The notes under the pieces: model-generated
The model's database searches: none
Told to the model about the DNA's origin: nothing
Seen by the model: only the letters and a program-made list of their open reading frames with translations
Shown here: piece by piece, positions 32,739 through 46,666 of the stretch
How the letters are laid out: every line of letters begins with the position of its first letter
Position numbering within the stretch: the stretch's first letter is position 1
From: Prauserella flavalba
GTDB lineage: Bacteria > Actinomycetota > Actinomycetes > Mycobacteriales > Pseudonocardiaceae
DNA length: 64,000 nucleotides
Reading direction: 5' to 3'
Assembly (NCBI RefSeq): GCF_003202235.1
Contig: NZ_MASU01000002.1
Location: 124,001-188,000 of the forward strand
Translations under genes and position numbers: made by a program

Positions 32739-32748
32739 GGCTGCCACC

Positions 32749-33567
32749 TCAGTCGCCGCTCAGCGCCGGTGCGTCTTCGAGCCGGTCCAGCGTCTCCTGG
32801 CTGACGTTGTGGAAGGGATCCCTGCCCTTGTACGCCGTGAGCACCTCGCGCAGCCCGCCCTGCATCTTCATCCGGCCCTCGTCCATCCAGATGGCCGAGG
32901 TGCACAGCTCCAGCAGCAGATCGTCCTGGTGGGACGCGAACACCAGCAGACCCGAGCGCTTCACCAGGTCGACGAGCCGGTCGCGCGCCTTGTTGAGGAA
33001 CGCGGCGTCGACGGCGCCGATGCCTTCGTCCAGCAGCAGGATCTCCGGGTCGATCGACGTCACCACGCCCAGCGCCAGCCGCACCCGCATACCGGTCGAG
33101 TAGGTGCGAAGCGGCATCGAGAGGTAGTCGCCGAGCTCGGTGAAGTCGGCGATGTCGTCGACGCGCTTCTCCATCTGCTTGCGCGTCATGCCCAGGTACA
33201 GGCCACGGATCATGATGTTCTCGTAGCCCGAGATCTCCTGGTCCATGCCGACGCCGAGGTCGAAGACCGGCGCCACGCGGCCGTTGACGCGGGCGGAGCC
33301 GCGCGTGGGCTCGTAGATGCCGGAGAGCAGCCGCAGCAGGGTCGACTTGCCCGCACCGTTGTGGCCGACGAGGCCGATGCGGTCGCCGCTCTTGACCGAC
33401 AGCGTGATGTCGTGCAGCGCCTCGATGATGGGCACCTTGCTGTCGGTGCCGATCTTGCCGCCCACCTTGCCCAGCACGCGCTTCTTCAGCGAGCGGGTCT
33501 TCGCGTCGAAGATCGGGAAGTCGACCGACGCGTTCCAGACGTCAATGCTGATCATCTTTGTCGTCAC
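32749..33567 (-). CDS. wzt: Galactan ABC exporter, ATPase subunit (Wzt type)
   Basis: ATPase of the ABC exporter that flips the lipid-linked galactan across the membrane. Of 272 residues, matching the short mycobacterial type without a C-terminal sugar-binding domain. Walker A is GLVGHNGAGKSTLLRLLSG (about residues 63-81), signature YSTGMRVRLALG, Walker B ILLLDEGIGAVD, H-loop SHQDD. The N-terminal helical segment TRSLKKRVLGKVGGKIG is typical of polysaccharide exporters. GTG at 33567 overlaps the wzm stop by 4 bp (GTGA); an internal ATG at 33555 is an alternative. Works with wzm and next to glfT1. Confidence 0.94.
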   Translation of the reverse strand: MTTKMISIDVWNASVDFPIFDAKTRSLKKRVLGKVGGKIGTDSKVPIIEALHDITLSVKSGDRIGLVGHNGAGKSTLLRLLSGIYEPTRGSARVNGRVAPVFDLGVGMDQEISGYENIMIRGLYLGMTRKQMEKRVDDIADFTELGDYLSMPLRTYSTGMRVRLALGVVTSIDPEILLLDEGIGAVDAAFLNKARDRLVDLVKRSGLLVFASHQDDLLLELCTSAIWMDEGRMKMQGGLREVLTAYKGRDPFHNVSQETLDRLEDAPALSGD

Positions 33568-34454
33568 ACCCAATACGAGACGCGAGCACGGTAGTTGCGC
33601 ATCACCAGCAGCGCCAGGGCCCAGCCGACGATCGTGAAGGCGCCGACCACCGCCCAGTGGTGCCAGCTCTGCTCGTTGCCGATCAGCGGCGCACGCACGA
33701 GCTGGATGAAGTGGTACAGCGGGTTCAGCTCGGCGACGAGGTCCCGCCAGCCGGCGCTCTCGCCGAACTTGTCCTTGAGGATGTCGGTGGACCACACGAT
33801 CGGCGTCATGAAGAACAGCAGGTTGATGAGGCTGGTCACGACCTGCGGGATGTCGCGGAACCGTGTGGACGCGATGCCGAACAGCAGTACCACCCAGCCC
33901 GCGTTGATCGCCACGAGCACGAAAGCCGGGATCGCGAGCAGCACGCTCCAGTTCAGACCGGGCTGTGGCACGCCGCCCTCGGTGATCGAGTAGCCGGGCG
34001 TGGTCACCGAACCCCAGAAGATCGCGATCACGAGGAAGTAGATGATCAGGTTGTGGGCGAGCATGATGCTCTGCCGCCACACCGTGCGCAGCACGTACAC
34101 CGAGAGCGGAGCGGGCAGGTGCTTGATCAGCCCCTCGTTCGCGATGAACGTGTCCGTGCCCTCCGTCAGGCACCCCAGAATGAAGTTCCAGACGATGAAG
34201 CCCGTGGTGATGTAGGGCAGGAACGTGGCGATCTCGGCGCCGAACAGCTGCGAGTACAGCAGGCCGAGACCGAGCGCGGTGATGCCCATGCTGAGCGTGA
34301 TCCACAGTGGCCCGAGCACAGAGCGGCGGTACCGCTGCTTGATGTCCTGCCAGGCGAGGTGGCCCCACAGCTCACGCTGCCGGGCGCCGTCCCTGAGATC
34401 GGCGAACGCACGGCGGAAAGTCCGACTGTCCGAAGCGGGTGGTGCCGATGTCAT
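33564..34454 (-). CDS. wzm: Galactan ABC exporter, permease subunit (Wzm type)
   Basis: A 296-residue ABC-2 type permease with six TM segments forming the channel for lipid-linked galactan. LWGHLAWQDIKQRYRRSVLG at the N-terminal cytoplasmic helix is the family signature; SVYVLRTVWRQSIMLAHN and FFMTPIVWSTDILKD are conserved later landmarks. ATG at 34454 after GGAAA is preferred; a GTG at 34496 would add 14 unlikely residues. First gene of wzm-wzt-glfT1, linked to wzt by a GTGA overlap. Upstream on the same strand, 91 bp away, is the TylF-type methyltransferase. Confidence 0.93.
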   Translation of the reverse strand: MTSAPPASDSRTFRRAFADLRDGARQRELWGHLAWQDIKQRYRRSVLGPLWITLSMGITALGLGLLYSQLFGAEIATFLPYITTGFIVWNFILGCLTEGTDTFIANEGLIKHLPAPLSVYVLRTVWRQSIMLAHNLIIYFLVIAIFWGSVTTPGYSITEGGVPQPGLNWSVLLAIPAFVLVAINAGWVVLLFGIASTRFRDIPQVVTSLINLLFFMTPIVWSTDILKDKFGESAGWRDLVAELNPLYHFIQLVRAPLIGNEQSWHHWAVVGAFTIVGWALALLVMRNYRARVSYWV

Positions 34455-34545: not shown

Positions 34546-35334
34546 TCAACCCGTGAGGCGTACCACGACCTGGCAGTCTTCGTAGGAGTACGCCTCGTAC
34601 GCGAACTGAACGCCTGTGCGCTCGGTGTACTCGCGCCACGCCCGGTACTCGTGGTCCTGCCAGCCGGGGTAGTTGAAGAACTCGTCGAACGCGATCACGG
34701 AACCCGCCCGCAGCCGGGGGCCGACGAGGTCGAGCACGGTTTTCGCTGAACTGTAGAGGTCGCTGTCGACGTGCACGAAGTCGATCGGCCGCCCGTGCCG
34801 CTCCAGGAAGGCAGGCAGCGTGTCGGCGAAGAGGCCGACCACGAGCTGCGCGCCCGGTACGTCCGGTAGGTCCGTCCTCGCGAACGCGCCCTCGGGCATC
34901 CCGGCCAGCCACGGCTCCGGCAGGCCCTCGAAAGAGTCGAAGCCGTACACCTCGCCGCCGTCGCGGGCCTCCGCGATGAGGCGGAGGGTGTTGCCGGAGG
35001 CGACGCCGAACTCCAGCGCCAGGCCGCCCTGCGGCGCCAGCGAGACCGCGTACCGGAGCGTCTCCCACGGTTTGCGGAAGTGCCGGGCGCCGAGCAGGTG
35101 CTCGCGGGCGAAGCGGTGGCTCTCGGCTGCGGCCTCGCGATCGCCCGCGTAGACGATGTCGCGCCTGCTGCGGATCTCGAACTCGACCACGCGGTCGAGC
35201 AGGCGCGCGGTGTCCCGCCGCAGCTCGGCGACCTGTTGTTCGAGCCGCTCAAGCTTGCGCAGCTGTGGGGCCTGCGCTGCCTCGACGGCGCGCACGAGTT
35301 TCGCGCGCAGTTCGTGCCGGACCTTTCGCCGCAT
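34546..35334 (-). CDS. SAM-dependent methyltransferase, TylF/macrocin-O-methyltransferase-like, with N-terminal coiled coil
   Basis: A 262-residue protein. The N-terminal 60 residues (RKLERLEQQVAELRRDTARL) predict a coiled coil; the remainder is a class I methyltransferase of TylF type with SAM motif LALEFGVASGNTLRLIAEA (about residues 125-143), GFDSFEGLPEPWL, and the metal/catalytic region IDFVHVDSDLYSSAKTVLD (about 200-218). TylF-family enzymes methylate sugar hydroxyls. Divergent from the sialyltransferase-like gene by 97 bp, so a role in methylating the glycan made by this cluster is plausible. ATG at 35334 was chosen for its basic start MRRKVRHELRAK; an ATG at 35403 exists upstream. Confidence 0.78.
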   Translation of the reverse strand: MRRKVRHELRAKLVRAVEAAQAPQLRKLERLEQQVAELRRDTARLLDRVVEFEIRSRRDIVYAGDREAAAESHRFAREHLLGARHFRKPWETLRYAVSLAPQGGLALEFGVASGNTLRLIAEARDGGEVYGFDSFEGLPEPWLAGMPEGAFARTDLPDVPGAQLVVGLFADTLPAFLERHGRPIDFVHVDSDLYSSAKTVLDLVGPRLRAGSVIAFDEFFNYPGWQDHEYRAWREYTERTGVQFAYEAYSYEDCQVVVRLTG

Positions 35335-35431
35335 CACCGGATGATAGGCGCCCGACTGCGCCGTTCGGAGCACTCGGTAGCTGTGTGTGTACGCGTTGCG
35401 CACTGCCGGTGTGCTGATAGCTTGCGTTCAC

Positions 35432-36091
35432 ATGGAAAGGGACGTCCGGGCGCCCAGTTTGCTGCGGAGCCTGCTCGAGGCGTACGCCGACCGACCCGAT
35501 CCACGTTCGGTCGCCGTCGTGGGCAATCAGCCGCTCGCCCCGGACGAGCAGCGGGCCAAGGCCATCGACTCGTGCGACCTCGTCTTCCGCGTCAACGGCT
35601 TCGTGTGTGACGAGCGGGGCGGCCGCCCTGCGGTCGGCAGCCGGACCCACGTCGTGGTGTTCAACCGCGCGCTGCGGGCCACGAAATGGGTCTTCGACGA
35701 CTACCCCTCGCGGCTGTATCTGCTGGTGGAGCCGGGCAGGCTGCACTGGGAGCCCGAGGACATCCCGCAGTGGTGGCCCGCCGACCTGGGTTTCGTGCCC
35801 GTGTCGAACCGTGAGGTGACGTTGCCGCTGTCGGAGGCGCTCGACCTGCCGACACAGGCGGAGGGCACGTGGGCCACCACCGGCACGATGGCGGCGTGGA
35901 TCGCGCGGACCACTTTTCCCGACGCCGAACTGGTGCTCACGGGCTTCTCGTTCATCGACGATCCGAACCAGACGGCCTGGGAGCACGCGGCGGGAGATTC
36001 GTGCATCGTGGGACCGGAGCACCAGATCGCCGCCGAGGGCAGGCTGCTGGAGTCCTGGACCAGTACGGGCAACACCAAGTTCCTCCGCTGA
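35432..36091 (+). CDS. Sialyltransferase-like protein (GT29 family pattern)
   Basis: A 219-residue soluble protein. PRSVAVVGNQPLAPDEQRAK followed by IDSCDLVFRVNGF (about residues 25-55) reproduces the sialyl-motif L pattern of GT29 enzymes (VVGN then ID then RxN). TWATTGTMAAWIARTTFPD then LVLTGFSF (about 148-175) corresponds to motif S (TG near a helix, then GF), and an HA plus GPEHQ near the C-terminus supply late histidines. GT29 enzymes transfer sialic acids from CMP donors; a full CMP-nonulosonic-acid pathway follows immediately, which fits well. Start ATG 35432 has no good ribosome site; a GTG/ATG upstream is possible. Function inferred, not proven. Confidence 0.7.
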   Translation: MERDVRAPSLLRSLLEAYADRPDPRSVAVVGNQPLAPDEQRAKAIDSCDLVFRVNGFVCDERGGRPAVGSRTHVVVFNRALRATKWVFDDYPSRLYLLVEPGRLHWEPEDIPQWWPADLGFVPVSNREVTLPLSEALDLPTQAEGTWATTGTMAAWIARTTFPDAELVLTGFSFIDDPNQTAWEHAAGDSCIVGPEHQIAAEGRLLESWTSTGNTKFLR

Positions 36092-36120
36092 CCACCGAGA
36101 ACCTCGAAGGAAAACGTGCA

Positions 36121-36555
36121 GTGAACCCGTTGAGAGTGCTTCGTGAGGGCGCCGCCGCGAGGCTCGCCAGGCTCGTCGACTTCCGCATCGACGACCGCAT
36201 GCGCGGGCACGTCGAGCGCATCGAGCGGCACGCGGGCAGGCTCGCCGAGCAGGAGCGGCGCGTCGCCGACCTGGCGGCGGAGCTCGACCGGGTCCGCGGT
36301 GACCTGCGCTGGACGGCCGGCGAGGTGGAGCGCCTGATCCCGCACGTCGCCGCGCAGGAGGCCCGGCTGGAGGACCTGCGCGCCAAGATCGCGCTGACCC
36401 CGCCCGCCGACAAGCCGGAGCTCGCCGAGGCGCGTTCGCTCGTCGAGGAGGTGCAGCGCCAGCACGCCCAGGTGCGCGTGCGGCTCACCGGGATCGCGCG
36501 GTACGAGGACCGGCTGCGCAAGCTGGAGGACCGCGCGGGCGCCAGTGGCGACTGA
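36121..36555 (+). CDS. Coiled-coil protein of unknown function
   Basis: A 144-residue, highly charged, almost entirely helical protein (HVERIERHAGRLAEQERRV, AAELDRVRGDLRWTAGEVER), with long heptad-like coiled coil from about residue 20 to 140 and a short break at LTPPADKPEL. No signal peptide, TM segment or recognised domain. The GTG at 36121 follows GAAGGAAAA and is 29 bp after the GT29-like gene; its 3' end overlaps pseH by 11 bp, so it belongs to the nonulosonic-acid operon. It resembles the N-terminal coiled coil of the methyltransferase at 34546; both may interact in a glycan-assembly complex, which is speculation. Confidence 0.7.
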   Translation: MNPLRVLREGAAARLARLVDFRIDDRMRGHVERIERHAGRLAEQERRVADLAAELDRVRGDLRWTAGEVERLIPHVAAQEARLEDLRAKIALTPPADKPELAEARSLVEEVQRQHAQVRVRLTGIARYEDRLRKLEDRAGASGD

Positions 36556-37024
36556 GGCGCCGCTGACCGTCCGCGAGGCGGGCGTTGGTGACGCCGAGCT
36601 GCTGCTGAGCTGGCGCAACGACCCGGAGACGCGGCGCTGGTCGCGGACCACCGATGTCGTCGCTCTCGCCGACCACGTGCGCTGGCTCGAGAACGTGCTG
36701 GCCTCGGCCGACCGGCTGCTGTTCGTCGCCGAGAAGGACGGGCCGGTGGGCACGGTGCGGTTCGATCTCGTGTCCGACGCCCCCGAGGGCACGTGGGAGG
36801 TCAGCATCACCGTCGCCCCCGAGTCCCGCGGCAAGGGCCTCGCCGGGGCGATACTGGCGGCGGGCGAGCGTGAGCTGCGCAGGCGGGAACCCGCGCGGTG
36901 CGTGCTCGCGAGCGTCCACGAGGACAACGCGGCGTCCGTGGCCCTGTTCCGCAAGGCCGGCTACACCGGCACCGAGGCGGCCGGGCCGTTCCGGGTGCTC
37001 ACCAAACCACTGGAGAATGCCTAG
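36545..37024 (+). CDS. pseH: GNAT acetyltransferase, PseH type
   Basis: A 159-residue GNAT of the RimJ/PseH type. LTVREAGVGDAELLLSWRND opens the fold; WEVSITVAPESRGKGLAGAIL (about residues 85-105) is the acetyl-CoA loop, and HEDNAASVALFRKAGYTGT closes it. In pseudaminic acid synthesis PseH acetylates the 4-amino group of the PseC product. It lies directly before the PseI-type gene (2 bp gap), and the other Pse enzymes are in the same cluster, which makes the assignment strong. GTG start at 36545 overlaps the coiled-coil gene. Confidence 0.85.
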   Translation: MATEAPLTVREAGVGDAELLLSWRNDPETRRWSRTTDVVALADHVRWLENVLASADRLLFVAEKDGPVGTVRFDLVSDAPEGTWEVSITVAPESRGKGLAGAILAAGERELRRREPARCVLASVHEDNAASVALFRKAGYTGTEAAGPFRVLTKPLENA

Positions 37025-37026
37025 CC

Positions 37027-38073
37027 ATGTCCGTCCGCATCGGTAAGCACGACATCGGGCCCGAGCACGCGCCGTTCGTGATCGCGGAGGTGTCGGGCAA
37101 CCACAACGGCGACCTCGGCCGCGCGCTCGCGATCGTCGACGCGGTGGCCGAGTCCGGGGCGCAGGCCGTGAAGCTGCAGACCTACCGGCCCGACACGATC
37201 ACGATCGACGTGGACGGTCCCGCGTTCCGGCTCAGCGACGGCCACGAGCTGTGGGGCGGGCAGAACCTCTACCGGCTCTACGAGCAGGCCCACACACCGT
37301 GGGAGTGGCACGAGCCGCTGTTCCGCCGTGCCCGCGAGCACGGCCTGGAGGTGTTCTCCAGCCCGTTCGACCCGACAGCCGTGGAGCTGCTGGAGTCCCT
37401 CGACGCGCCCGCGTACAAGATCGCGTCGTCGGAGATCGTCGACCTGCCGCTCGTCGAGCTGTGCGCGCGGACCGGCAAGCCGCTGGTGATCTCCACCGGC
37501 ATGGCCACGGTCGCCGAGATCGACGCCGCGGTGCGCACCGCGCGCGACGCGGGCAACGACCAGCTGATCGTGCTCGGCTGCACGGCCAGCTACCCGGCCG
37601 CGCCCGAGGAGAGCAACCTGCGTGGCCTGCCGGTGCTGGCCCAGGTGACGGGCGCGCTGGTGGGGCTGTCCGACCACACACCGGGCCTCGGTGCCCCGGT
37701 CGCCGCCGTGGCGCTCGGTGCGTGCGCGATCGAGAAGCACGTCACCCTTTCCCGCGGAGACGGCGGCGTCGACTCGGCGTTCTCGCTCGAACCCGCCGAG
37801 CTCGCCGCGCTGGTCACCGAGACACGGCGGGCGTGGCAGGCGCTGGGTGAGCCGGTGCTCGGGCCGAAGGAGAGCGAGCGGGAGGGCCTTCGCCTGCGGC
37901 GTTCACTCTACGTCGTCGAGGACGTGCGGGCAGGCGAGCCGGTGACCGAGCGGAACGTGCGCTCGATCCGTCCCGCAGGCGGCCTGCCACCCGCCGAGAT
38001 CACGAAGGTGCTCGGTCGGACGTTCCGCGTCGACGCCCCGAAGGGCACCCCCCTGAGCTGGGATCTGGTTTGA
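37027..38073 (+). CDS. pseI: Nonulosonic acid (pseudaminate) synthase, NeuB/PseI type
   Basis: Condenses a 6-deoxy-diacetamido hexose with phosphoenolpyruvate to give the nine-carbon acid. The 348-residue protein has the NeuB TIM barrel (IAEVSGNHNGDLGRALAIVD about residues 18-37, AVKLQTYRPDTI, FSSPFDPTAVELLE, YKIASSE, STGMATVAEI, GLSDHTPG, AIEKHVTLSR) and a C-terminal SAF/antifreeze-like domain (LRRSLYVVEDVRAGEPVTER, about 285-348). The motifs do not alone separate Neu, Leg and Pse synthases; PseB, PseC, PseH and PseG genes nearby point to pseudaminic acid. ATG at 37027, 2 bp after pseH. Confidence 0.92.
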   Translation: MSVRIGKHDIGPEHAPFVIAEVSGNHNGDLGRALAIVDAVAESGAQAVKLQTYRPDTITIDVDGPAFRLSDGHELWGGQNLYRLYEQAHTPWEWHEPLFRRAREHGLEVFSSPFDPTAVELLESLDAPAYKIASSEIVDLPLVELCARTGKPLVISTGMATVAEIDAAVRTARDAGNDQLIVLGCTASYPAAPEESNLRGLPVLAQVTGALVGLSDHTPGLGAPVAAVALGACAIEKHVTLSRGDGGVDSAFSLEPAELAALVTETRRAWQALGEPVLGPKESEREGLRLRRSLYVVEDVRAGEPVTERNVRSIRPAGGLPPAEITKVLGRTFRVDAPKGTPLSWDLV

Positions 38074-38154
38074 GGGTCGTTCGACTCTGGGGCCCGGCGC
38101 CGAGGCCGTGCGACGCTGCGACTCAGCCTGGGGGTCTGAGGCTGGAGGTCGCGG

Positions 38155-40332
38155 ATGGCCGGCGCCGCGCAGGCTGGACCACTCGAACGCCTCGGCCGCG
38201 GCTGCGCGCGGCACCCGTGGCCGGTGTTGCTGGTCTGGCTGGCCGTGCTCGCGGGGGCCACTGTCGGCAAGGTCATGGTCGGCGACGCCTACAGCGATGA
38301 CTACACGTTGTCGGACACGGAGTCGGGACAGGGCAGCGAGGTGCTCGTCCAGCACGGTGTCACCCACAGCGCGAACTCCGCCCGCATCGTGTTCGAGTCC
38401 GGCTCGCTGACCGCGCACCGCGACGCCGTCGAGCAGGCCATCGGCGACGTCCGCGAGGTCGACCACGTGCTCGCCGCGTCCGACCCGTTCGCGCAGGGCG
38501 CGACGTCGCGAAACGGCCAGGTCGCGTTCTCGACCGTCCAGTTCGACGCCGACCCCGGCACCATCGGTACCGGGCTCGTCGACGACATGGACACGGCGAC
38601 CGATCCCGTGCGTTCCGCCGGGGTCTCGGTCGACTACGGCGGCAGCCTCGGGCAGGCCGCCGAGCCGGAGACCGGCGACCGCAGGTCAGAGGCGATCGGC
38701 ATCGGCGTCGCAGTCGTCGTGCTGCTGCTCGCCTTCGGCAGCGTGTTCGCCGCGGGGCTGCCGATCGTGACGTCGGTGGCGGGCGTGCTCACCGGCGTCG
38801 GCCTGCTCGGGCTGCTCGCGAGCCAGGTCCAGTTCGCCACCACGGCGCCCACGCTCGCGATCATGATCGGGCTCGGCGTGGGCATCGACTACGCGCTGTT
38901 CCTCGCCACCCGTCACCGGCAGCTCCTCATGGATGGCGTGGACCCGGTGACGGCGGCGGGGCGCACCGTGTCGGGTAGCGGGCGTTCGGTGCTGATCGCG
39001 GGCACGACCGTGGTGATCGCGCTGCTGGGCCTGTTCGCGGTCGGAGTGGGTTTCATCGGCAAGCTCGGGCTGGCGGCCGCGATCACCGTGCTCACCGCGG
39101 CGGCGACCGCGGTCACGCTCGTGCCAGCTCTGCTGGGGCTTGCCGGGCGACGGATCGACAGGCTGCACGTCCGCCGCCCCGTCGCCGAGGCGAGCGAGCG
39201 GGGATCCGCCGATGCCTGGCAACGCTACGCGGGCGGGCTGCTCCGGCACCCGTGGCTCGCGCTGTGCGGTGGGGTCGTGGTGGCCGGAGTGCTGGCGATT
39301 CCCGCATTCTCCATGCAGCTCGGCCACATCGACCAGGGCGCCGACGCGGAGGGCAGCACGACCCGGCTGGCCTACGACGCCATCGCGAGAGGCTTCGGCC
39401 CGGGTGCGAACGGGCAGTTCACGGTGGTAGTACAGGGCGCCGACGGCAACGTCGCCCAGCGGCTGCAACAGGCGCTGTCGAACACCCGAGGGGTCGCCGC
39501 GGCGACAACGCCGACCCAGAGCAAGGATGGGACGCTGATCGTCTCCACCGTCACGCCGACATCAGCCCCGCAGGACAGTGCGACCGATGACCTGCTGCAC
39601 CGGCTCAGGGACCAGACGCTCCCCGGTGTAATCGGCGGAACGAACGCGCACAGCTACGTCACCGGCGCCACCGCGGGTCAGCTCGACTTCCGCGACATCG
39701 CCGCCGCGCGCCTACCGACGATCATCGGCGTGGTGGTGGGAGCCGCGTTCCTCTTGCTGCTGCTGACGTTCCGCAGCCCGGTGCTCGCGCTCAAGGCCGC
39801 GGTACTCAATCTGCTGTCGATCGCGGCCGCGTACGGCGTGATCGTCGCCGTGTTCCAGTGGGGCTGGGGCGGTTCGTTCTTCGGCGTCGCCGAACCGGTG
39901 CCGATCGAATCCTATGTCCCGATGATCATGTTCGCGATCGTCTTCGGGCTGTCCATGGACTACGAGGTGTTCTTGCTCTCCCGCGTGCACGAGGCGTGGC
40001 GGCGCAGCGGCGACAGCCACGCGAGCGTGGTCACGGGCCTCGCCGTCACGGCTCGGGTGATCAGCTCGGCCGCGTTGATCATGATGTCGGTGTTCTTCGC
40101 GTTCCTTCTCTCCGACAGCGTCGTGATCAAGATGCTGGCGCTGGGTCTCGGGGTGAGCGTGCTCATCGACGCGACCCTCATCCGGCTCGTGATCGTGCCG
40201 GCCGCGATGTTCCTGCTCGGCGACCGGTGCTGGTGGCTGCCCGCCCGGCTCGACCGTGTGCTGCCGCATCTGGAACCCGAGCCGGAATCGAAGGAACGGC
40301 CTAGCCCCCGAAGAACGACCGCACCGACGTGA
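38155..40332 (+). CDS. MMPL/RND-family lipid transporter
   Basis: A 725-residue MMPL-type transporter with two repeats. Each half has one TM, an outer domain, and about five clustered TM segments. IGLGVGIDYALFLATRHR (about residues 240-257) and IVFGLSMDYEVFLLSRVHE (about 595-613) are the paired Asp-Tyr motifs that carry the proton path. MMPL proteins export lipids or glycolipids. It stands in the nonulosonic-acid cluster, between pseI and pseC, so it might move a lipid-linked product, but that is inference. ATG at 38155 follows GGAGGT. Its 3' end overlaps the convergent pseC by 32 bp. Confidence 0.88.
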   Translation: MAGAAQAGPLERLGRGCARHPWPVLLVWLAVLAGATVGKVMVGDAYSDDYTLSDTESGQGSEVLVQHGVTHSANSARIVFESGSLTAHRDAVEQAIGDVREVDHVLAASDPFAQGATSRNGQVAFSTVQFDADPGTIGTGLVDDMDTATDPVRSAGVSVDYGGSLGQAAEPETGDRRSEAIGIGVAVVVLLLAFGSVFAAGLPIVTSVAGVLTGVGLLGLLASQVQFATTAPTLAIMIGLGVGIDYALFLATRHRQLLMDGVDPVTAAGRTVSGSGRSVLIAGTTVVIALLGLFAVGVGFIGKLGLAAAITVLTAAATAVTLVPALLGLAGRRIDRLHVRRPVAEASERGSADAWQRYAGGLLRHPWLALCGGVVVAGVLAIPAFSMQLGHIDQGADAEGSTTRLAYDAIARGFGPGANGQFTVVVQGADGNVAQRLQQALSNTRGVAAATTPTQSKDGTLIVSTVTPTSAPQDSATDDLLHRLRDQTLPGVIGGTNAHSYVTGATAGQLDFRDIAAARLPTIIGVVVGAAFLLLLLTFRSPVLALKAAVLNLLSIAAAYGVIVAVFQWGWGGSFFGVAEPVPIESYVPMIMFAIVFGLSMDYEVFLLSRVHEAWRRSGDSHASVVTGLAVTARVISSAALIMMSVFFAFLLSDSVVIKMLALGLGVSVLIDATLIRLVIVPAAMFLLGDRCWWLPARLDRVLPHLEPEPESKERPSPRRTTAPT

Positions 40333-41440
40333 TCACGCGGTCCACATCGGACTCGGTGAGGTCCGGGAACAGCGGAAGGGACAGCTGTTCGGAGTAGAAC
40401 CGTTCGGCGTTCGGGCACAGCCCGCGCCGGTAGCCGAGGTCCTCGAACACGGGGTGCCAGTACACGGGGATGTAGTTCACCTGCACGCCGATGCCGTGCC
40501 CGCGCAGGTGGTCGAACAGTGCCCGGCGCCGCCCGCCGAGCACGCGCAGCGGGTACAGGTGCCACATCGGGTCCGCGCCCTCGCGGGTCACCGGGGTGCG
40601 CACGCCGTCGAGGTCGGCGAATGCCTTGTCGTAGCGCGTGTGGATCGCCGCGCGGCGCCGCTTGAACTCCGCGAGCCGCCGTAGCTGGCTGCTGCCCAGC
40701 GCGCACAGCACGTCCGGCAGCCGGTAGTTGAGCCCGAAGGCGTGCACCTCCTGGTGCCAGCCGCCCTCGTCGGGGTACCGCTGGGCGGCGCGGTCGCGAA
40801 CGAGGCCGTGGTTGCGGAACGCCCTCGCCCGCTCCAGCAGTTGTTCCGACGCGCTCACCACGGCACCGCCCTCGGCCGTGGTGAGGTTCTTGGTGGCGAA
40901 GAAGGAGAACGTGGTGAGATCGGCGAGCGAGCCGATCGGCCTGCCCCGCCACGAGCCGCCGATCGAGTGCGCGGCGTCCTCCAGCAGCAGGGCACCCGCG
41001 GAGTCGGCGACCGTGCGCAGCTCGTCCAGCTCCGCGGGGTGACCCGCGTAGTCGACGGCGGCGATCACCTTCGTGCGGCTCGTCACGGCGGCGCTGGCCG
41101 CGTGCGGATCGAGGTTGCCGGTGTCGGGCTCGACGTCGGCGAACACCACCTTCGCGCCGTGCAGCGCCGCGGCCGACGCCGTCGCGACGAACGTCATGGG
41201 GCTGGTCACCACCTCGTCACCGGGGCCGACGCCCGCGGCCGCGTAGGCCACATGCAGCGCCGCCGTGCCCGAGGTGACCGCCACCGCCGGGGTTCCGCCC
41301 GTGTGCTCAGCGAGGTCGGCCTCGAACCGCTGCACCGCCGGTCCCGTGGTCAGCCAGTCGCCGCGCAGCACCTCGGCGACGGCCGCGAGGTCGTCGCCGC
41401 CGACCGACTGCCGCCCGTAGGGCAGGAACGGCTCACTCAT
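40301..41440 (-). CDS. pseC: UDP-4-keto-sugar aminotransferase, PseC type
   Basis: A 379-residue DegT-family PLP aminotransferase. It should aminate the 4-keto sugar made by PseB using glutamate. Fold landmarks: LPYGRQSVGGDDLAAVAEVL, GDWLTTGPAVQRFEADLAEH, VTSGTAALHVAYAAAG (PLP phosphate), DYAGHPAELDEL, LEDAAHSIGG (PLP ring Asp), and FFATKNLTTAEGG with the Schiff-base lysine near residue 187; C-terminal YIPVYWHPVFEDLGY is typical of PseC. ATG at 41440 overlaps the pseB stop by 8 bp, indicating an operon. Its intact lysine contrasts with the lysine-less relative at 8995. Confidence 0.93.
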   Translation of the reverse strand: MSEPFLPYGRQSVGGDDLAAVAEVLRGDWLTTGPAVQRFEADLAEHTGGTPAVAVTSGTAALHVAYAAAGVGPGDEVVTSPMTFVATASAAALHGAKVVFADVEPDTGNLDPHAASAAVTSRTKVIAAVDYAGHPAELDELRTVADSAGALLLEDAAHSIGGSWRGRPIGSLADLTTFSFFATKNLTTAEGGAVVSASEQLLERARAFRNHGLVRDRAAQRYPDEGGWHQEVHAFGLNYRLPDVLCALGSSQLRRLAEFKRRRAAIHTRYDKAFADLDGVRTPVTREGADPMWHLYPLRVLGGRRRALFDHLRGHGIGVQVNYIPVYWHPVFEDLGYRRGLCPNAERFYSEQLSLPLFPDLTESDVDRVITSVRSFFGG

Positions 41441-42416
41441 GTTCGGCGATCAGCTCTTGCAGCTGGCCGGTGTCGAGCCAGAGGTCGTTGGTGTCGGAGC
41501 GGTAGGCGAAGCCGTCCGGCACCGGCACGCCGCTCTCCGGCGGCTCGTAGCCCCAGCCCGCGATGTGCGGCTGGACCACGTAACGGTCCTCCAGCAGCAG
41601 CGTCCGCCGCGAGTCGTCCGGCGCGATCATCTCCTCGTGCAGCTTCTCGCCGGGCCGGATGCCGACCTCGTGCATGTCGCTGCCCGGCGCGATCGCCTGC
41701 GCGAGGTCGACGAGCCGCATGCTGGGGATCCTCGGCACGTACAGCTCGCCGCCGTGCATCTGGTCGAACGAGTCCACCACGAAACGCACCGCCTGTGGCA
41801 GCGTGATCCAGAAGCGGGTCATCTCCTTGTGCGTGATCGGCAGCGACTCGCCCCGCTCGGCGAGCGAGCGGAAGAACGGGATGACGCTGCCCCGCGAACC
41901 CATCACGTTGCCGTAGCGGACCACGGCGAAGCGGGTGGGGTGCGTGGCCGCGTAGTGGTTGGCGCTGATGAACATCCGGTCGGCGCACAGCTTGGTGGCG
42001 CCGTAGAGGTTGATCGGGCTCGACGCCTTGTCGGTGGAGAGCGCCACGACCTTGCGCACGCCGGTGTCGATGGCGGCCTCGATGACGTTCTGCGAGCCCA
42101 TCACGTTGGTCTGGACGAACTCGAAGGGGTTGTACTCGCCGGTGTCCACCTGCTTGAGCGCGGCGGCGTGGACCACGTAGTCGACGCCGTGCATGGCGCG
42201 TTCGAGCCTGCGCCGGTCGCGGACGTCGCCGATGAACCAGCGCAGCCGGGGGTCGTCGCCGAACTGCCTGCGCACCTCGTACTGCTTGAGCTCGTCGCGG
42301 GAGAGCACGACCAGCCTGCGCGGGTTGAGCTCGGCGAGCGCGTGGGTGATGAAGGCCTTTCCGAACGAGCCCGTACCTCCGGTGAGCAGGATGCTCGCAC
42401 CGTCGAGCTCGGCCAT
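41433..42416 (-). CDS. pseB: UDP-GlcNAc 4,6-dehydratase (inverting), PseB type
   Basis: First step of pseudaminic acid synthesis: converts UDP-GlcNAc to the 5-inverted 4-keto-6-deoxy sugar. The 327-residue short-chain dehydrogenase has the NADP motif LLTGGTGSFGKAF (about residues 10-22), RDELKQYE, the HAAALKQV segment, and an active site with STDKASSPINLYGATK, the TDKA plus YGATK pattern of inverting dehydratases. RPGEKLHEEMI near the C-terminus is also typical. ATG at 42416 follows GGAGGT six bases upstream. Divergent from pseF by 41 bp, so one short region probably drives both halves of the pathway. Confidence 0.94.
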   Translation of the reverse strand: MAELDGASILLTGGTGSFGKAFITHALAELNPRRLVVLSRDELKQYEVRRQFGDDPRLRWFIGDVRDRRRLERAMHGVDYVVHAAALKQVDTGEYNPFEFVQTNVMGSQNVIEAAIDTGVRKVVALSTDKASSPINLYGATKLCADRMFISANHYAATHPTRFAVVRYGNVMGSRGSVIPFFRSLAERGESLPITHKEMTRFWITLPQAVRFVVDSFDQMHGGELYVPRIPSMRLVDLAQAIAPGSDMHEVGIRPGEKLHEEMIAPDDSRRTLLLEDRYVVQPHIAGWGYEPPESGVPVPDGFAYRSDTNDLWLDTGQLQELIAEHE

Positions 42417-42457
42417 GGGGTTACCTCCGCGTTGCAGGCGTATGGACTCCGGCCATC

Positions 42458-43201
42458 ATGTCACCCATGCGGGAACCGCCGGTCGTGAACGTCGTCATCC
42501 AGGCGAGGGCGTCGTCGACGCGGTTGCCTGGCAAGGTGCTGCGCTCGCTGGGCGGTCGCAGCGTGCTCGGCTGGGTGGTGCGGGCGGCGTCGGCGACGCC
42601 GGGAGTCGACACGGTGGTGGTGGCGACCTCGGAAGCGCCCGGTGACGACGCGGTGGCCGAGGAGGCCGCGCGGTGTGGTGCCGAGGTGGTGCGGGGGCCG
42701 CTGGACGACGTGCTCGCCCGCTTCCTGCTCGCGTGCGAGCGGTACCCGGCGGACGCGGTGGTGCGGCTCACCGCGGACTGCCCGCTGCACGACCCCTCGC
42801 TGATCGCGCAGCTCGTGGCGTTGTGGCGGGCGCAGCCGGAGCTCGACTACGTGAGCAACGTCCTGGTGCGCACGCTGCCGCGCGGGTTCGACGCCGAGCT
42901 GGTGCGGGTGCCGGTGCTCGCCGAGCAGGCGGAGGAACAGGAGGGGTCGCATCGCGAGCACGTCACGTCCGGTGTGCACGGGCGACCGGAGCGTTATGCG
43001 TGCGCCGGTATCGTCGTGTCGCCGCCCGCCGGTGACCTGCGGGTCACGCTCGACACCGAGCAGGACTGGACGGTGCTGGAGGGCGTGGTCGCCGAGCTGG
43101 GGGACCGCGTTCCGGCGTGGCGGGAGGTCGTGGACGTGCTGCGGCGGCGTCCGGACCTGGTGGCGGTGAACGCGGACGTGGAGCAGAAGGCGGTGCGGTG
43201 A
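42458..43201 (+). CDS. pseF: CMP-nonulosonate cytidylyltransferase, PseF/SpsF type
   Basis: A 247-residue nucleotidyltransferase of the CMP-NeuAc/CMP-Kdo synthetase fold, activating the nonulosonic acid with CTP. The CTP-binding motif is IQARASSTRLPGKVL (about residues 14-28), followed by VVVATSEAPGDDAVAEEA, VVRGPLDDVLARF and VVRLTADCPLHDP (metal-binding Asp). This is the SpsF/PseF subgroup. ATG at 42458 or 42467 could start translation; neither has a clear ribosome site. Its stop overlaps the pseG GTG (GTGA). Confidence 0.87.
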   Translation: MSPMREPPVVNVVIQARASSTRLPGKVLRSLGGRSVLGWVVRAASATPGVDTVVVATSEAPGDDAVAEEAARCGAEVVRGPLDDVLARFLLACERYPADAVVRLTADCPLHDPSLIAQLVALWRAQPELDYVSNVLVRTLPRGFDAELVRVPVLAEQAEEQEGSHREHVTSGVHGRPERYACAGIVVSPPAGDLRVTLDTEQDWTVLEGVVAELGDRVPAWREVVDVLRRRPDLVAVNADVEQKAVR

Positions 43202-44208
43202 GGATCCTGCTGCGAGCGGACTCGTCGCGACAGATCGGGGCCGGGCACATCTCGCGCATGGTCGCGCTCGCCGAGCAGGCGACGCGGCGCGGCTGGACGG
43301 TCGCCTTCGCCGGGCGCACGGACAACGCCGACTTCCTCGCGGCGCGCTTCGCCGAGCTGGGCGTTCCGGTGCTCGGGCCAGGGACACGCGCGGACGGCTA
43401 CGACGCGGTGGTGGTGGACCACTACGGCATCGCCGAGGTGCGTTCCGAGGTGAACTCCGCCGGTGCGCGGCTGGTGTCCTTCGAGGACGGCGTGTTCGGC
43501 AGGCGCGCGGCGGACGTGGTGGTGGACTGCGGGCTGGTGCCGCAGCCGCGCCCCGACGACGGTTCGGGCCTGGTGCTCACCGGCGTCGCCTACGCCCCGC
43601 TCCGGCAGGTTGTGCTCGAAGCGCGGGACAAACGGAGAGCAAGGGAGCTTTACTCCCGCGAAACGGGAGTAAAGCTCCCACGCTCCCACGACGGGGGCGA
43701 CGCGAAAGCTCCACACGTGCTGGTGGTGCTCGGTGGGGGTGGGGTGTGGCAGGAGACCGTCGCCGCGTTGCTGGAGGCCCTGCGCGCCACGGGCACGCCG
43801 TGCACGGTCGAGGCGCTCGTGCGCGGCGAGCCCGCCCTGCCCGAGCCAGGGCCGGGCCAGCGCTTCGTCGTCTCGCCACCCGGCCCGGGCCTGCACGGCA
43901 AGCTCGTCGACACCGATCTGGTGGTCAGCGCCTCCGGCGTGACCCTCTTCGAACTCTGCTGCATCGGCGTGCCGACCGCGCTCGTCCAGCTCGTCGACAA
44001 TCAGGCCGCCGGCTACCGCGCCGCTGTCGACGGGGGCCTCGCCGCGGGCCTCGGCACGGCCGCCGCGCTCGATGACGCCACCGCGACCCTCACCGCGCTG
44101 CTCACCGAGCCCGCCGCTCGCGAGCGGCTCGCCACCACGGCCTCGGCCACCGTCGACGGCCACGGCGCCGCCCGCGTGCTCGACGCGCTCGAAGGGGCCG
44201 GCGGATGA
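43198..44208 (+). CDS. pseG: UDP-sugar hydrolase, PseG type, with an in-frame palindromic insert
   Basis: Removes UDP from the diacetamido sugar nucleotide before PseI acts. The 336-residue GT-B-fold protein has the catalytic loop IGAGHISRMVALAEQ (His near residue 17), VVVDHYGI, VSFEDGVFGRRAADVVVDC and the C-terminal donor-binding VVSASGVTLFELCCIG and LVDNQ. Between the two domains, residues about 147-163 (RARELYSRETGVKLPRS) are encoded by a palindromic repeat inserted without breaking the frame; beyond it the VLVVLGGGG strand resumes. GTG at 43198 overlaps pseF; the stop overlaps the next gene (ATGA). Confidence 0.88.
   Translation: MRILLRADSSRQIGAGHISRMVALAEQATRRGWTVAFAGRTDNADFLAARFAELGVPVLGPGTRADGYDAVVVDHYGIAEVRSEVNSAGARLVSFEDGVFGRRAADVVVDCGLVPQPRPDDGSGLVLTGVAYAPLRQVVLEARDKRRARELYSRETGVKLPRSHDGGDAKAPHVLVVLGGGGVWQETVAALLEALRATGTPCTVEALVRGEPALPEPGPGQRFVVSPPGPGLHGKLVDTDLVVSASGVTLFELCCIGVPTALVQLVDNQAAGYRAAVDGGLAAGLGTAAALDDATATLTALLTEPAARERLATTASATVDGHGAARVLDALEGAGG
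43637..43685. repeat. Palindrome family B, copy inside the pseG coding sequence
   Basis: A 49-bp palindrome centred at 43661. Inner arms of 16 bases are perfect (GGGAGCTTTACTCCCG at 43643-43658, matched at 43664-43679) with a 5-base CGAAA loop; outer GAGC/GCTC blocks at 43637-43640 and 43682-43685 extend it with two mismatches. The left unit GAGCAAGGGAGCTTT is the same as in the intergenic copy at 5781. All codons in it are open in the pseG frame. Confidence 0.9.
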
Positions 44209-45710
44209 GCAAGGGCGCCAGGTCGGGCCTGCTGCTGGGGCTCGCCGTCCTGTTCGCGTTCGGCACCTGGCTGGCGTGGTCGTTCGTGATCGACGACGCC
44301 TTCATCACCTTCCGCTACAGCAGGCACCTCGCCGAGGGGTTCGGGCCCGTCTGGAACGTCGGCGGCGACGCCGTCGAAGGGTTCACCAACTTCGCCTGGA
44401 TGCTCTGGCACGGGCTGTTCGCCTCGTTCGGCGCCGAGAACCTGGTGACCGTCGCGAAGGTGACGTCTGTCGTGCTCGGCGGCGCGACGCTCGTGCTGCT
44501 CGTGCGCGCCACCGACGGCGTGGGAGCCGTCGTCGCCGGGCTGGCGTTCGTGCTGTTCCTGCCCACCTACTTCCACCTCAACAGCGGGCTGGAGACCGTG
44601 GCCTTCGCCGGGGTGCTGCTCCGGCTGGTGATCGTCGCGCTGCACGTGATCGACGAGGAGCGGGTCTTCGACTGGGAGCCGCCGCTGCTGCTCCTGCTGC
44701 TCGCGATGCTGCGGCCGGAGGGCCTCCTCGCCGGACTGCCCGCGCTCGCCGTGTGGTTCTGGTACTCGCGCCGGATCCCCACTGCCCGCTGGGGCCTCGG
44801 CGCGCTGCTGGTCGTCGGCGCCGGGTACTTCCTGTGGCGCTGGATCTACTACGGGCAGCTGCTGCCGAACACGTTCTACGTCAAGTTCGGCGACCTCGCC
44901 GCGAGCTCCGAGTGGGCAGGGCGCACGGCGCTCGCGCTCGCCCCGCTGCTGGTGCTGACGCTCGCCCTGCTCGTCGTGAAGGGGCTGTGGTTCAAGGGCG
45001 CCCTGCTGAGCCTCACGGTCGTGGCCACGTACGCGCCGTACGCGGTGTCCGGCCTGACGATGGACTACCTGCACCGCTTCGCCTACCACGCCTTTCCAGT
45101 GCTCTGCCTCGGCGCGGGCATCGCGGTCGCCGCGATCGGTCACCGCCTGGCGAGCGCGGCCGTGGGTGCCGTCGCGGTCGGCTGGGTCGCCGTCACCGGT
45201 GCGATCGCCCAGGGGCTGCCGACGATCGCGAACTACGGGGTGGACCTCCAGCGGGCGCACGTCGCGATCGGACAGGGCCTCGCCGAGGCCGGGCTGCCCG
45301 AGGAGGCACGCACTCTGGCCGTCAGCGACGCCGGTGCGATCCCGTACTACAGCGACTGGCGGTCAATCGACTACATCGGACTCAACGACGAGGCGATCGC
45401 CCACGGCGCCGACCCCACCACCGTAGTGGGCAAGGCAAGGCCGACGGTCGTGATCGTGACGTCGTACCGGCCGGAGATTCCGGGCGAGATGTACGGCCTG
45501 GACGTGCGGGCGGCGACCGCCGGTTACCAGCTGGTGGCGCGGATCCAGATGCGCGAGGACTACTGGCAGAACGTCTTCGTCCTGCCGCAGTGGGCGCCCC
45601 AGGTGAGCACCGCCGTCACCGCGAGCACCGACGCGGCACGGCTGACGTACGACCAGGGGCGCTACGAGCTGACCGTCGACCGCTGGCTCGACCGCGTCAG
45701 CGGCCGCTAG
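44205..45710 (+). CDS. AftB-like GT-C membrane glycosyltransferase (third of three)
   Basis: A 501-residue polytopic membrane protein, about 10 TM segments. The acidic first outer loop is FVIDDAFITFRYSRHLAEG, followed by VEGFTNFAWML; later NSGLETVAF, LRPEGLLAG, IYYGQLLPNTFYVKFGD, and IDYIGLNDEAIAH give the same ordered pattern as the protein at 11639. It overlaps pseG by 4 bp (ATGA), so it is co-expressed with the nonulosonic-acid genes and could transfer a lipid-linked sugar of that glycan. An IS982-type element begins immediately after its TAG stop; the insertion preserved the stop codon. Confidence 0.75.
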   Translation: MSKGARSGLLLGLAVLFAFGTWLAWSFVIDDAFITFRYSRHLAEGFGPVWNVGGDAVEGFTNFAWMLWHGLFASFGAENLVTVAKVTSVVLGGATLVLLVRATDGVGAVVAGLAFVLFLPTYFHLNSGLETVAFAGVLLRLVIVALHVIDEERVFDWEPPLLLLLLAMLRPEGLLAGLPALAVWFWYSRRIPTARWGLGALLVVGAGYFLWRWIYYGQLLPNTFYVKFGDLAASSEWAGRTALALAPLLVLTLALLVVKGLWFKGALLSLTVVATYAPYAVSGLTMDYLHRFAYHAFPVLCLGAGIAVAAIGHRLASAAVGAVAVGWVAVTGAIAQGLPTIANYGVDLQRAHVAIGQGLAEAGLPEEARTLAVSDAGAIPYYSDWRSIDYIGLNDEAIAHGADPTTVVGKARPTVVIVTSYRPEIPGEMYGLDVRAATAGYQLVARIQMREDYWQNVFVLPQWAPQVSTAVTASTDAARLTYDQGRYELTVDRWLDRVSGR

Positions 45711-45750: not shown

Positions 45751-45797
45751 GAAGGGTGTTCAAGATCAGTTTGTGAGGACCGACTTGAACACCCTTC
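45751..45797 (+). promoter_or_regulatory. Hairpin that encloses the transposase start codon
   Basis: Perfect 14-base arms (GAAGGGTGTTCAAG at 45751-45764 and its complement at 45784-45797) with a 19-base loop that contains the GTG at 45773. In a transcript entering from the flanking gene the ribosome-binding region would be locked in this stem; a transcript starting inside it would lose the left arm. Similar start-codon hairpins limit transposase translation from read-through in other insertion sequences. Confidence 0.65.
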
Positions 45798-46666
45798 TGA
45801 CCGCACTGTACGTCAAGATCGATGACCATCTGGGCAGGCCATCACGCATGGGGCGGCCGCCTCGTCTCACCGACGCCGAGCTGGTCACGCTTGCGGTGGC
45901 CCAGGCCCTTCTGGGCGTGCGGTCGGAGGCCCGCTGGCTGCGGTTCGTCCCCGCGCACCTGCCCGGAGCGTTCCGGTATCTCCCCGGACAGTCCGGCTAC
46001 AACAAGCGGCTGCGCGCCGCTTCCCCGCTGCTCAAACGCGTGATCCGAATGCTCGCACTCGACACCGACCTGTGGGCCGACACCACGTGGGTGGTCGACT
46101 CCACCCCGGTCGAATGCGCCCGCTCCCGGCCCACGGTCAAGCGATCGGCACTGGCCGGATGGGCTGGTTATGGCTACTGCGCCAGCCATTCCCGCTTCTT
46201 CTGGGGACTGCGCCTGCACCTGATCTGCACCCCGGCAGGCCTGCCGATCACGTGGGCCCTGGCCGACCCGAAGATCGACGAACGGCAGGTCTTGATGGCC
46301 GTGCTCGACCACGACCCCGAGGTGCTGGCCGATCGACCCGGCCTGCTGATCATCGCCGACAAGGGCTACGCGTCCCGCGAGCTGGATCGCTACCTGGCCG
46401 ACCGTGGGATACGGCTGTGGCGTCCCTCGTATCGCAACCGCGCCCCGCATCCAGCGCAGCACCTGCTCAAACCGGTCCGGCAACTGATCGAGTCGGTCAA
46501 CGACACCCTCAAGGGCCAACTTGACCTCGAGCTACACGGCGGCCGCACCATCGACGGTGTGACCGCCCGCATCGCACAGCGACTGCTCGCCATGACCGCC
46601 GCCATCTGGCACAACCGCGCCACCGGCCAGCCCGTCACCCGATCCCTCATCGCGTTCGACCACTGA
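45773..46666 (+). CDS. IS982-family transposase
   Basis: A 297-residue DDE transposase. Catalytic positions appear in WVVDSTPVECARSR (first Asp, about residue 108), LLIIADKGYASRELD (second Asp, about 195) and LIESVNDTLKGQLDLELHGG (Glu region, about 240-255). AELVTLAVAQALLGVRSEARWLR and GYNKRLR in the N-terminal part are typical of the IS982 family. The gene is uninterrupted. The GTG start lies in the loop of a start-codon hairpin; no ribosome site is evident, as expected for a poorly translated transposase. Confidence 0.92.
   Translation: MRTDLNTLLTALYVKIDDHLGRPSRMGRPPRLTDAELVTLAVAQALLGVRSEARWLRFVPAHLPGAFRYLPGQSGYNKRLRAASPLLKRVIRMLALDTDLWADTTWVVDSTPVECARSRPTVKRSALAGWAGYGYCASHSRFFWGLRLHLICTPAGLPITWALADPKIDERQVLMAVLDHDPEVLADRPGLLIIADKGYASRELDRYLADRGIRLWRPSYRNRAPHPAQHLLKPVRQLIESVNDTLKGQLDLELHGGRTIDGVTARIAQRLLAMTAAIWHNRATGQPVTRSLIAFDH

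Follow-up and report, generated by a model that had tools for sequence, protein, structure and literature searches.

A GT29-like protein and a coiled-coil partner with exchangeable nonulosonic-acid cassettes at the galactan exporter genes of Pseudonocardiaceae

We analysed a window of 64,000 nucleotides from Prauserella flavalba (contig NZ_MASU01000002.1, positions 124,001 to 188,000; "the window" is this whole stretch), in which six pseudaminic-acid (Pse)-type genes, a gene for a GT29-like protein and a short coiled-coil gene lie between the minus-strand genes glfT1, wzt and wzm and the gene bpa. When this cluster is compared at the sequence level with related loci, it holds that the constant unit is the GT29-like gene plus the coiled-coil gene, that the sugar is exchangeable, and that the site in Pseudonocardiaceae is the galactan exporter. 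On sequence and predicted structure, we consider it probable that lipid-linked galactan, before Wzm-Wzt exports it, is decorated or capped by a cytosolic nonulosonic-acid transferase acting together with a coiled-coil rod. The comparison draws on 94 related places found in named genomes, of which 80 were kept; as the scan used two peptide patterns, it covers fairly close relatives. These 80 loci belong to Pseudonocardiaceae (62), Geodermatophilaceae (9), Microbacteriaceae (5) and metagenome-assembled genomes of Nocardioidaceae (3), and one is unranked.

The sugar genes in the window would lead, by way of PseB, PseC, a GNAT acetyltransferase, PseG, PseI and PseF, from UDP-N-acetylglucosamine (UDP-GlcNAc) to the CMP-activated form of pseudaminic acid or of a near isomer of Pse. 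The core genes are as follows (AF2, AlphaFold 2).

35432..36091, plus strand: GT29-like putative nonulosonic-acid transferase, 219 residues, no membrane helix (PF00777, AF2 model, Foldseek, conserved motifs)
36121..36555, plus strand: coiled-coil partner, 144 residues, helix 3-92 then helix 99-143 (AF2; adjoins the GT29-like gene in 79 of 80 loci)
36545..37024, plus strand: PseH-like GNAT acetyltransferase (PF13302; TIGR03585 under cut-off)
37027..38073, plus strand: PseI, pseudaminic acid synthase (TIGR03586 above cut-off; PDB 8h2c)
40301..41440, minus strand: PseC aminotransferase (TIGR03588 just under cut-off)
41433..42416, minus strand: PseB, inverting UDP-GlcNAc 4,6-dehydratase (TIGR03589 above cut-off; PDB 2gn4)
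42458..43201, plus strand: CMP-sugar synthetase in the PseF role, CTP_transf_3 type (PF02348; PDB 6oew)
43198..44208, plus strand: PseG-like UDP-sugar hydrolase with a GxGH motif (TIGR03590 under cut-off; PDB 3hbm)

The GT29-like, coiled-coil, PseH and PseI genes form a tight plus-strand run, separated by a 29-base gap, an 11-base overlap and a 2-base gap (with starts as chosen here; PseI probably starts at 37027, which corrects the open reading frame start at 36898). The PseB and PseC genes overlap on the minus strand, as do those of PseF and PseG on the plus strand. All named genes except the coiled-coil frame pass a simple filter of GC content by codon position.

The initial annotation had read these genes as a Pse-type pathway in which every one of the six steps has its own gene, and the family-model search that it proposed as a check came out in favour of this. 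With the NCBIfam models, PseB (TIGR03589, 483.9 bits, cut-off 407.75) and PseI (TIGR03586, 450.2 bits, cut-off 340.25) pass, and PseC misses narrowly (TIGR03588, 417.0 bits, cut-off 423.5). PseH (TIGR03585, 44.6 bits, cut-off 93.1), PseG (TIGR03590, 85.1 bits, cut-off 153.55) and PseF (25.7 bits, cut-off 205.7) are recognised below their cut-offs. The roles of PseC, PseH, PseF and PseG were thus assigned from context, best matches and the GxGH stretch. A sequence comparison with the PDB, which covered PseB, PseI, PseG and the PseF-role protein, agrees for the first three: the top match of PseB is 2gn4, "UDP-GlcNAc C6 dehydratase" (E 2e-108), which we take to be FlaA1 of Helicobacter; that of PseI is 8h2c, "Pseudaminic acid synthase" (E 1.3e-73); and the sole match of PseG is 3hbm/3hbn, "UDP-sugar hydrolase" (E 5e-6), with the GxGH stretch aligned. 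The PseF-role protein, presumably of SpsF type, has 6oew, "Cytidylyltransferase", as its top match (E 7e-30). Pse is favoured over legionaminic acid (Leg), since the dehydratase fits PseB better than LegB (483.9 versus 59.0 bits), the aminotransferase fits PseC better than LegC (417.0 versus 195.5 bits), and the hydrolase is PseG-type, not NeuC-type, by NCBIfam.

The GT29-like protein matches PF00777 within the L motif with 22.2 bits (E 1e-4), under the cut-off of 23, and is therefore called "GT29-like" here. Its AF2 model, built from 51 rows, has a mean predicted local distance difference test score (pLDDT) of 89.7 and a predicted template-modelling score (pTM) of 0.89. In a Foldseek comparison with this model, ranks 1-30 are all mammalian GT29 enzymes (ST6GALNAC2, ST3Gal1, ST8SIA3 and ST6GAL1) at probability 1.00, with TM scores by query of 0.30-0.64 and 16-27% identity over aligned columns, and ranks 31-50 have E values of at least 0.085 and probabilities of 0.03-0.51. 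Only GT29 enzymes are thus among the confident matches. The earlier guess of GT29 holds, and the structure comparison proposed for it came out in its favour. In an alignment of 51 rows (the window and 50 of the 80 loci), V30-G31-N32, D46, R53, T149-T150-G151-T152, H185 and H197-x4-E202 are invariant or nearly so, with H185, H197 and E202 strictly invariant. For motif III of GT29, which we take to be HYY, a single invariant residue, H185, is the candidate; the full HYY is visible in a more distant protein, L155, described below. HMMER aligns the L motif to ST6GAL1 and ST8SIA3, and the S motif was assigned by eye; motif names follow general usage and PMC5811610. The highest mean hydropathy over 19 residues is 0.86, which makes a membrane helix unlikely and a cytosolic protein likely. 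The protein has the fold of GT29 and its L, S and VS motifs, as judged by alignment and a predicted structure.

Furthermore, the GT29-like protein is tightly linked to nonulosonic-acid genes across genomes. In the 297 genomes from this family, 70 encode it and 83 have a PseI-profile match above 60 bits (weaker matches were excluded, which lowered the count from 86 by dropping G029, G157 and G287). The GT29-like protein and a NeuB-family synthase occur together in 67 of the 70 genomes; the genes are within 5.5 kb of each other in 63 of the 70 and on different contigs in the remaining four of the 67. On comparative grounds, a donor of the nonulosonic-acid class is well supported.

The linked sugar genes, however, are not always of the Pse type. 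Typed within a stretch of up to 10 kb on each side, the 80 loci carry PseB and PseC (45), NeuB and NeuC (13), a cassette typed as that of 2-keto-3-deoxynononic acid (Kdn; 10), or none in the stretch (12). The second kind is labelled N-acetylneuraminic acid (Neu5Ac)-type because one example, L063, has a true NeuC (TIGR03568, 362.7 bits, cut-off 235.9) and a NeuB that is closest to N-acetylneuraminate synthase (354.8, below the cut-off of 399.65). The Kdn-type was scored by a homologue of a NeuB that has no SAF region, and its label is suggested by the CMP-sugar synthetase of L052 and L128, which is fused to a domain like KdsC or Kdn-9-phosphatase (77.9 bits, cut-off 180). A telling case of exchange is Amycolatopsis arida (L105), whose GT29-like protein is 81% identical to that of the window and falls among Pse-linked proteins in the tree, but whose cassette is NeuB-NeuC-NeuA. 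A pseF homologue (74%, L105:14169) is still in place there, apparently as a relic of a replaced Pse cassette. On the GT29 tree, computed labels alone (69 of 81 rows: 46 Pse including the window, 13 Neu and 10 Kdn-type) require at least seven cassette changes. With four loci labelled by hand (L077, L110 and L118 as Pse, L137 as a questionable Kdn), the count is eight changes for four labels, or seven if the two Kdn labels are merged, against a mean of 21.6 after shuffling. Both trees are quick ones, with long branches for L116 and L118. Sequence comparison establishes that the sugar cassette has been exchanged around a constant GT29 and coiled-coil unit.

The exceptions to the linkage are informative as well. 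The three genomes with a GT29-like protein but no NeuB (G172, G195 and G215, of one genus) have completeness values of 91, 83 and 82; in G195 the GT29 match is split in two. Two of these three exceptions were read (L055 and L056), and N32 of the VVGN stretch, H185 and H-x4-E are lost in both. Whole-genome NeuB searches were made for 12 genomes, representing 10 of the 12 loci without a cassette along with L115 and L137; the other two such loci, L077 and L110, have a PseI match inside the stretch. NeuB was found in 10 of the 12 genomes and not in Saccharomonospora halophila (L141) or S. iraqiensis (L146), whose GT29-like genes have lost the same three features and carry, ahead of the S motif, a longer insert that is variable. 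That the motifs are lost where NeuB is gone argues that the GT29-like protein is useless without its sugar. Linkage, cassette exchange and this joint decay strengthen the interpretation given in the initial annotation.

The second part of the constant unit is a coiled-coil protein of 121-196 residues (76 usable rows), whose gene is directly downstream of the GT29-like gene in 79 of the 80 loci and missing in L116; this is the plain count, and a rule excluding overlapping genes gives 73 of 80. The AF2 model of the window's protein (pLDDT 91.7, pTM 0.49) consists of a 90-residue helix and a 45-residue helix, whose relative placement is unreliable because of the low pTM. Seven residues are invariant in the window and 39 of the 76 usable rows, all within the last 30 residues. 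An amphipathic membrane anchor at the N-terminus was considered and is unsupported, as the median hydrophobic moment there is 0.53, compared with 0.55 in the rest.

The genes that flank this unit in the window, and those that proved not to belong to its core, are as follows.

31842..32747, minus strand: GlfT1-type galactofuranosyltransferase of the flanking galactan locus (Pfam GT2; homologue in 65 of 80 named loci)
32749..33567, minus strand: Wzt, galactan exporter ATPase (PF00005; start approximate, 272 residues)
33564..34451, minus strand: Wzm, galactan exporter membrane part (PF01061; open reading frame extends to 34496)
34546..35403, minus strand: TylF-like methyltransferase, lineage extra, non-core (PF13578, PF05711; 2 of 80 loci)
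38155..40332, plus strand: MMPL transporter, lineage extra, non-core (PF03176; 1 of 80 named loci)
44205..45710, plus strand: hydrophobic membrane protein of GT-C look, variable extra (homologue in 10 of 80 loci)
45773..46666, plus strand: DDE transposase of an insertion sequence, at the far end of the cassette and adjoining bpa (PF01609)
46790..47368, minus strand: Bpa, far flank of the insertion interval (PF10759)

In Pseudonocardiaceae, wzm lies within about 4.3 kb of the GT29-like gene in 58 of 62 loci, whatever the sugar cassette. The two genes are divergent, with aligned ends less than 300 bp apart, in 39 of these 58 loci, 33 of which have Pse cassettes; in the remaining ones a Neu or Kdn-type cassette often lies between them. 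For comparison, 18 genomes counted as GT29-negative were picked by hand (17 without a GT29 match, plus G025). The distance from GlfT1 to Bpa is 1.8-2.0 kb in 9 of these 18, roughly the room of wzt and wzm, versus 14.0 kb in the window; the cassette therefore appears to have been inserted at a site that varies.

All genes named in the initial annotation were found in their places, and Pfam matches agree with the naming of Wzm, Wzt, GlfT1, GlfT2 and Bpa. It had also counted the MMPL transporter and the TylF-type methyltransferase as parts of the cluster; both are present in the window, but neither is conserved among named relatives. The MMPL protein was rejected as the product exporter, its only occurrence among the 80 named loci being in Prauserella cavernicola (L068), and the methyltransferase and the GT-C-like protein were rejected as core parts. 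The last of these, which is possibly AftB-like, has no Pfam match and no PDB sequence match. Of 43 loci with a measurable stretch before bpa, a crude test scored 10 as having a membrane protein there and 10 as having a gap of less than 1 kb, while 23 showed neither; the criterion is overly strict, because a known GT-C homologue in L067 escaped it. The genome that carries the window is 8.09 Mb in size, and the nearest named relative by locus is Prauserella endophytica (GT29-like protein 95% identical, other locus proteins 89-99%). Within the arabinogalactan locus, the window also contains an EspG-family (ESX) gene at 28361-29143, and such a gene is near glfT2 in many relatives.

We propose that CMP-bound nonulosonic acid would be the donor for the soluble GT29-fold transferase (35432-36091), which, together with the coiled-coil protein (36121-36555), would transfer the sugar within the cytosol onto a lipid-linked glycan of the wall. 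The acceptor would most likely be the galactan made next door by GlfT1 and GlfT2, with addition before export by Wzm-Wzt. The protein would then be an active enzyme, Pse its actual sugar, the addition a cap rather than a branch and the coiled coil a ruler, each of which we infer from the comparisons above. According to excerpts of PMC10951656, mycobacterial galactan is assembled on the cytosolic side, and Wzm-Wzt exports it.

Several observations weigh against this reading. The initial annotation had suggested a nonulosonic-acid glycan on an arabinogalactan-bearing wall; this is supported overall, but attachment to arabinogalactan is the part that we infer. The Pfam score is 0.8 bit below the GT29 cut-off. 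All three PDB matches in a sequence search with the GT29-like protein are GT29, but with E values of 0.07-0.5, and a profile of 23 relatives gives seven matches, of which six are GT29 (ST6GAL1, ST8SIA3 or ST6GALNAC2, at E 0.018-0.53; weak evidence by themselves) and one is a dockerin (E 0.24). H197 and E202 are placed by HMMER on the VS stretch of ST8SIA3, in a piece that scores only -1.5 bits. A NeuB-family synthase occurs without this GT29-like protein in 16 genomes (16 of 227), and the Fisher p of 5.6e-47 for their co-occurrence ignores kinship and is overstated because the genomes are related. The GT29-like protein is absent from 227 of the 297 family genomes, and all 18 GT29-negative genomes examined keep GlfT1; galactan therefore does not need it. 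The Wzt of the window, at about 272 residues, has only an ABC domain by Pfam and no carbohydrate-binding domain, in contrast to systems where export is signalled by the cap. Finally, the link to wzm is looser outside Pseudonocardiaceae: a Wzm above 100 bits is near the GT29-like gene in four of nine Geodermatophilaceae loci but in none of the five from Microbacteriaceae or the three from Nocardioidaceae (whose stretches reach less than 2 kb on one side), so that the acceptor may not always be galactan.

A different possibility is that the GT29-like protein is a nonulosonic-acid transferase whose acceptor is another surface polymer or glycolipid, such as a teichulosonic-acid-like polymer, a lipid or a glycoprotein, and that the position beside wzm is an insertion hot spot. 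The pair occurs without a Wzm above 100 bits in the Microbacteriaceae and Nocardioidaceae loci and in five of the nine Geodermatophilaceae loci, with the coiled coil missing in one of all these (L116), GlfT1 and Bpa are 8.8-15.7 kb apart in three of the 18 GT29-negative genomes (G003, G010 and G016), and distant GT29-like proteins of other actinomycetes lie near Kdn-type genes. However, the retention of wzm in nearly all Pseudonocardiaceae loci with any cassette speaks for the galactan, and no conserved alternative exporter was seen in the 80 loci. In addition, a weak Wzm/Wzt-like pair (20-39% identity) is beside the cluster in three of the five Microbacteriaceae loci, so that an ABC transporter may again serve for export there. 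We regard another acceptor as possible but doubtful.

A special case of the proposed galactan modification is that the GT29-like protein and the coiled coil act as a chain-length terminator, in which the cap would stop galactan growth and the coiled coil would be the ruler, by analogy with O antigens terminated by 3-deoxy-D-manno-oct-2-ulosonic acid (Kdo). The rod of 90- and 45-residue helices and its nearly constant pairing with the GT29-like protein fit this idea, and excerpts of PMC11231755 describe an enzyme of Klebsiella O4 and O12 that adds Kdo, within a coiled-coil-ruler protein, to end chains exported by an ABC transporter. However, in those systems the coiled coil is within the terminator protein and Wzt has a carbohydrate-binding module, neither of which was seen here; galactan size control in mycobacteria has instead been proposed to involve GlfT2 with Wzm-Wzt (excerpts of PMC10951656); and most relatives lack the GT29-like protein. 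Such a terminator appears unlikely. That the GT29-like protein is inactive or unrelated, and that the product of the cluster is a soluble secondary metabolite, is highly improbable: the Pfam score just under the cut-off and the reduction of motif III (HYY) to a single H would permit it, but the confident fold matches are GT29 enzymes only, H197 and E202 are invariant, and in the rows read motifs are lost only where the sugar genes are gone.

Beyond the family, PF00777 matches at E 0.001 occur in 7 of 296 genomes of the class, all seven of which have a strong NeuB-family gene (89 of 296 overall). Without the genome of the window, the figures are six of six versus 88 of 295 (p 6e-4), and in four of these six the PF00777 match and NeuB are on one contig within 19 kb. 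Among 14 control genomes there was no match at E 0.001, and two at E up to 1, below the cut-off. A search of 396 genomes of the phylum with the A1 profile gave two matches, the window's own genome and a fusion protein (L155), so GT29-coil pairs of this close type are rare beyond the family. The view of the initial annotation that mycobacteria have no such genes is touched only indirectly: in family f2, which belongs to the same order, one of the 19 genomes listed has a PF03102 match.

The fusion protein is an actinomycete protein of 817 residues (L155:7034-9484) in which a GT29 domain (44.5 bits) is joined to a GT-B-type domain (glycosyltransferase group 1). By eye it has HYY and a VS-like stretch, its gene adjoins those of a CMP-sugar synthetase and a Kdn-type NeuB, and its sequence suggests a polymerase with two domains that would build a nonulosonic-acid polymer. 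Distant GT29-like domains also form the C-termini of longer proteins in L161 and L162 (genus g53) and in L163. In L161 and L162 the stretch also contains genes for a Kdn-type NeuB and a CMP-sugar synthetase; in L163 the stretch has the synthetase alone, and NeuB is 18 kb from the GT29-like domain.

The usual view of arabinogalactan is that of an invariable core of the wall. If our reading is true, an exchangeable acidic-sugar module in the galactan export locus would give antibiotic-producing genera, namely Amycolatopsis, Saccharomonospora, Prauserella, Actinophytocola and Actinokineospora, an altered surface charge and altered recognition. GT29, to which the human sialyltransferases belong, would gain small soluble bacterial members with a clear sugar context, and since the same enzyme type is found beside Pse, Neu and Kdn cassettes, the origin and donor specificity of GT29 become testable questions. 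A broader scheme can be put forward tentatively: in arabinogalactan-bearing actinomycetes a single GT29-fold enzyme might cap lipid-linked galactan with Pse, Neu5Ac or Kdn, with a horizontally exchanged donor cassette and a coiled-coil ruler that fixes where or when the cap is added, and the actinobacterial GT29-like class might be nonulosonic-acid wall transferases and a pool of prokaryotic enzymes that bears on how animal sialyltransferases arose. Among open-licence literature listings on nonulosonic, pseudaminic and sialic acids, arabinogalactan, teichulosonic acid, GT29 and the host genera, we found no title or abstract opening on this system.

Several known systems resemble parts of this one. 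Actinobacterial teichulosonic acids likewise place nonulosonic acids in actinomycete walls; the known ones are polymers of Kdn or Pse, separate from other wall polymers and mostly present in organisms without arabinogalactan. The PseBCHGIF pathway of Campylobacter and Helicobacter also devotes a single gene to every one of its six steps, but in the window the PseF role falls to a different type of cytidylyltransferase and the genes are inside an arabinogalactan locus. The Kdo-terminating coiled-coil O-antigen systems, such as WbbB, whose transferase we take to be GT99, and K. pneumoniae O4 ORF7, also combine a CMP-ulosonate transferase, a coiled coil and an ABC exporter. The O4 transferase is GT137 according to excerpts of PMC11231755, which cover these likenesses, whereas ours is GT29-like, and unlike in terminators of the WbdD/WbbB type our coiled coil is a separate gene and our Wzt has no recognised carbohydrate-binding module.

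The CAZy GT29 sialyltransferases (ST6GALNAC2, ST3Gal1, ST8SIA3 and ST6GAL1) share with the window's protein the fold, the L motif, the TTG within the S motif and the H-x4-E VS motif, and a single H may stand for motif III. In contrast to the mammalian enzymes, it has about 220 residues and no membrane anchor, and in relatives it is linked to Pse, Neu or Kdn genes. Bacterial GT29 proteins were described in 2018 from Proteobacteria (Alpha-, Gamma- and Epsilonproteobacteria), together with one archaeal sequence (excerpts of PMC5811610). The word "actinobacteria" is absent from the main text of that account, whose excerpts mention neither sugar-cassette exchange nor a coiled-coil partner. The proteobacterial proteins are alike, according to the same excerpts, in being bacterial and in having neither a membrane anchor nor disulphide cysteines.

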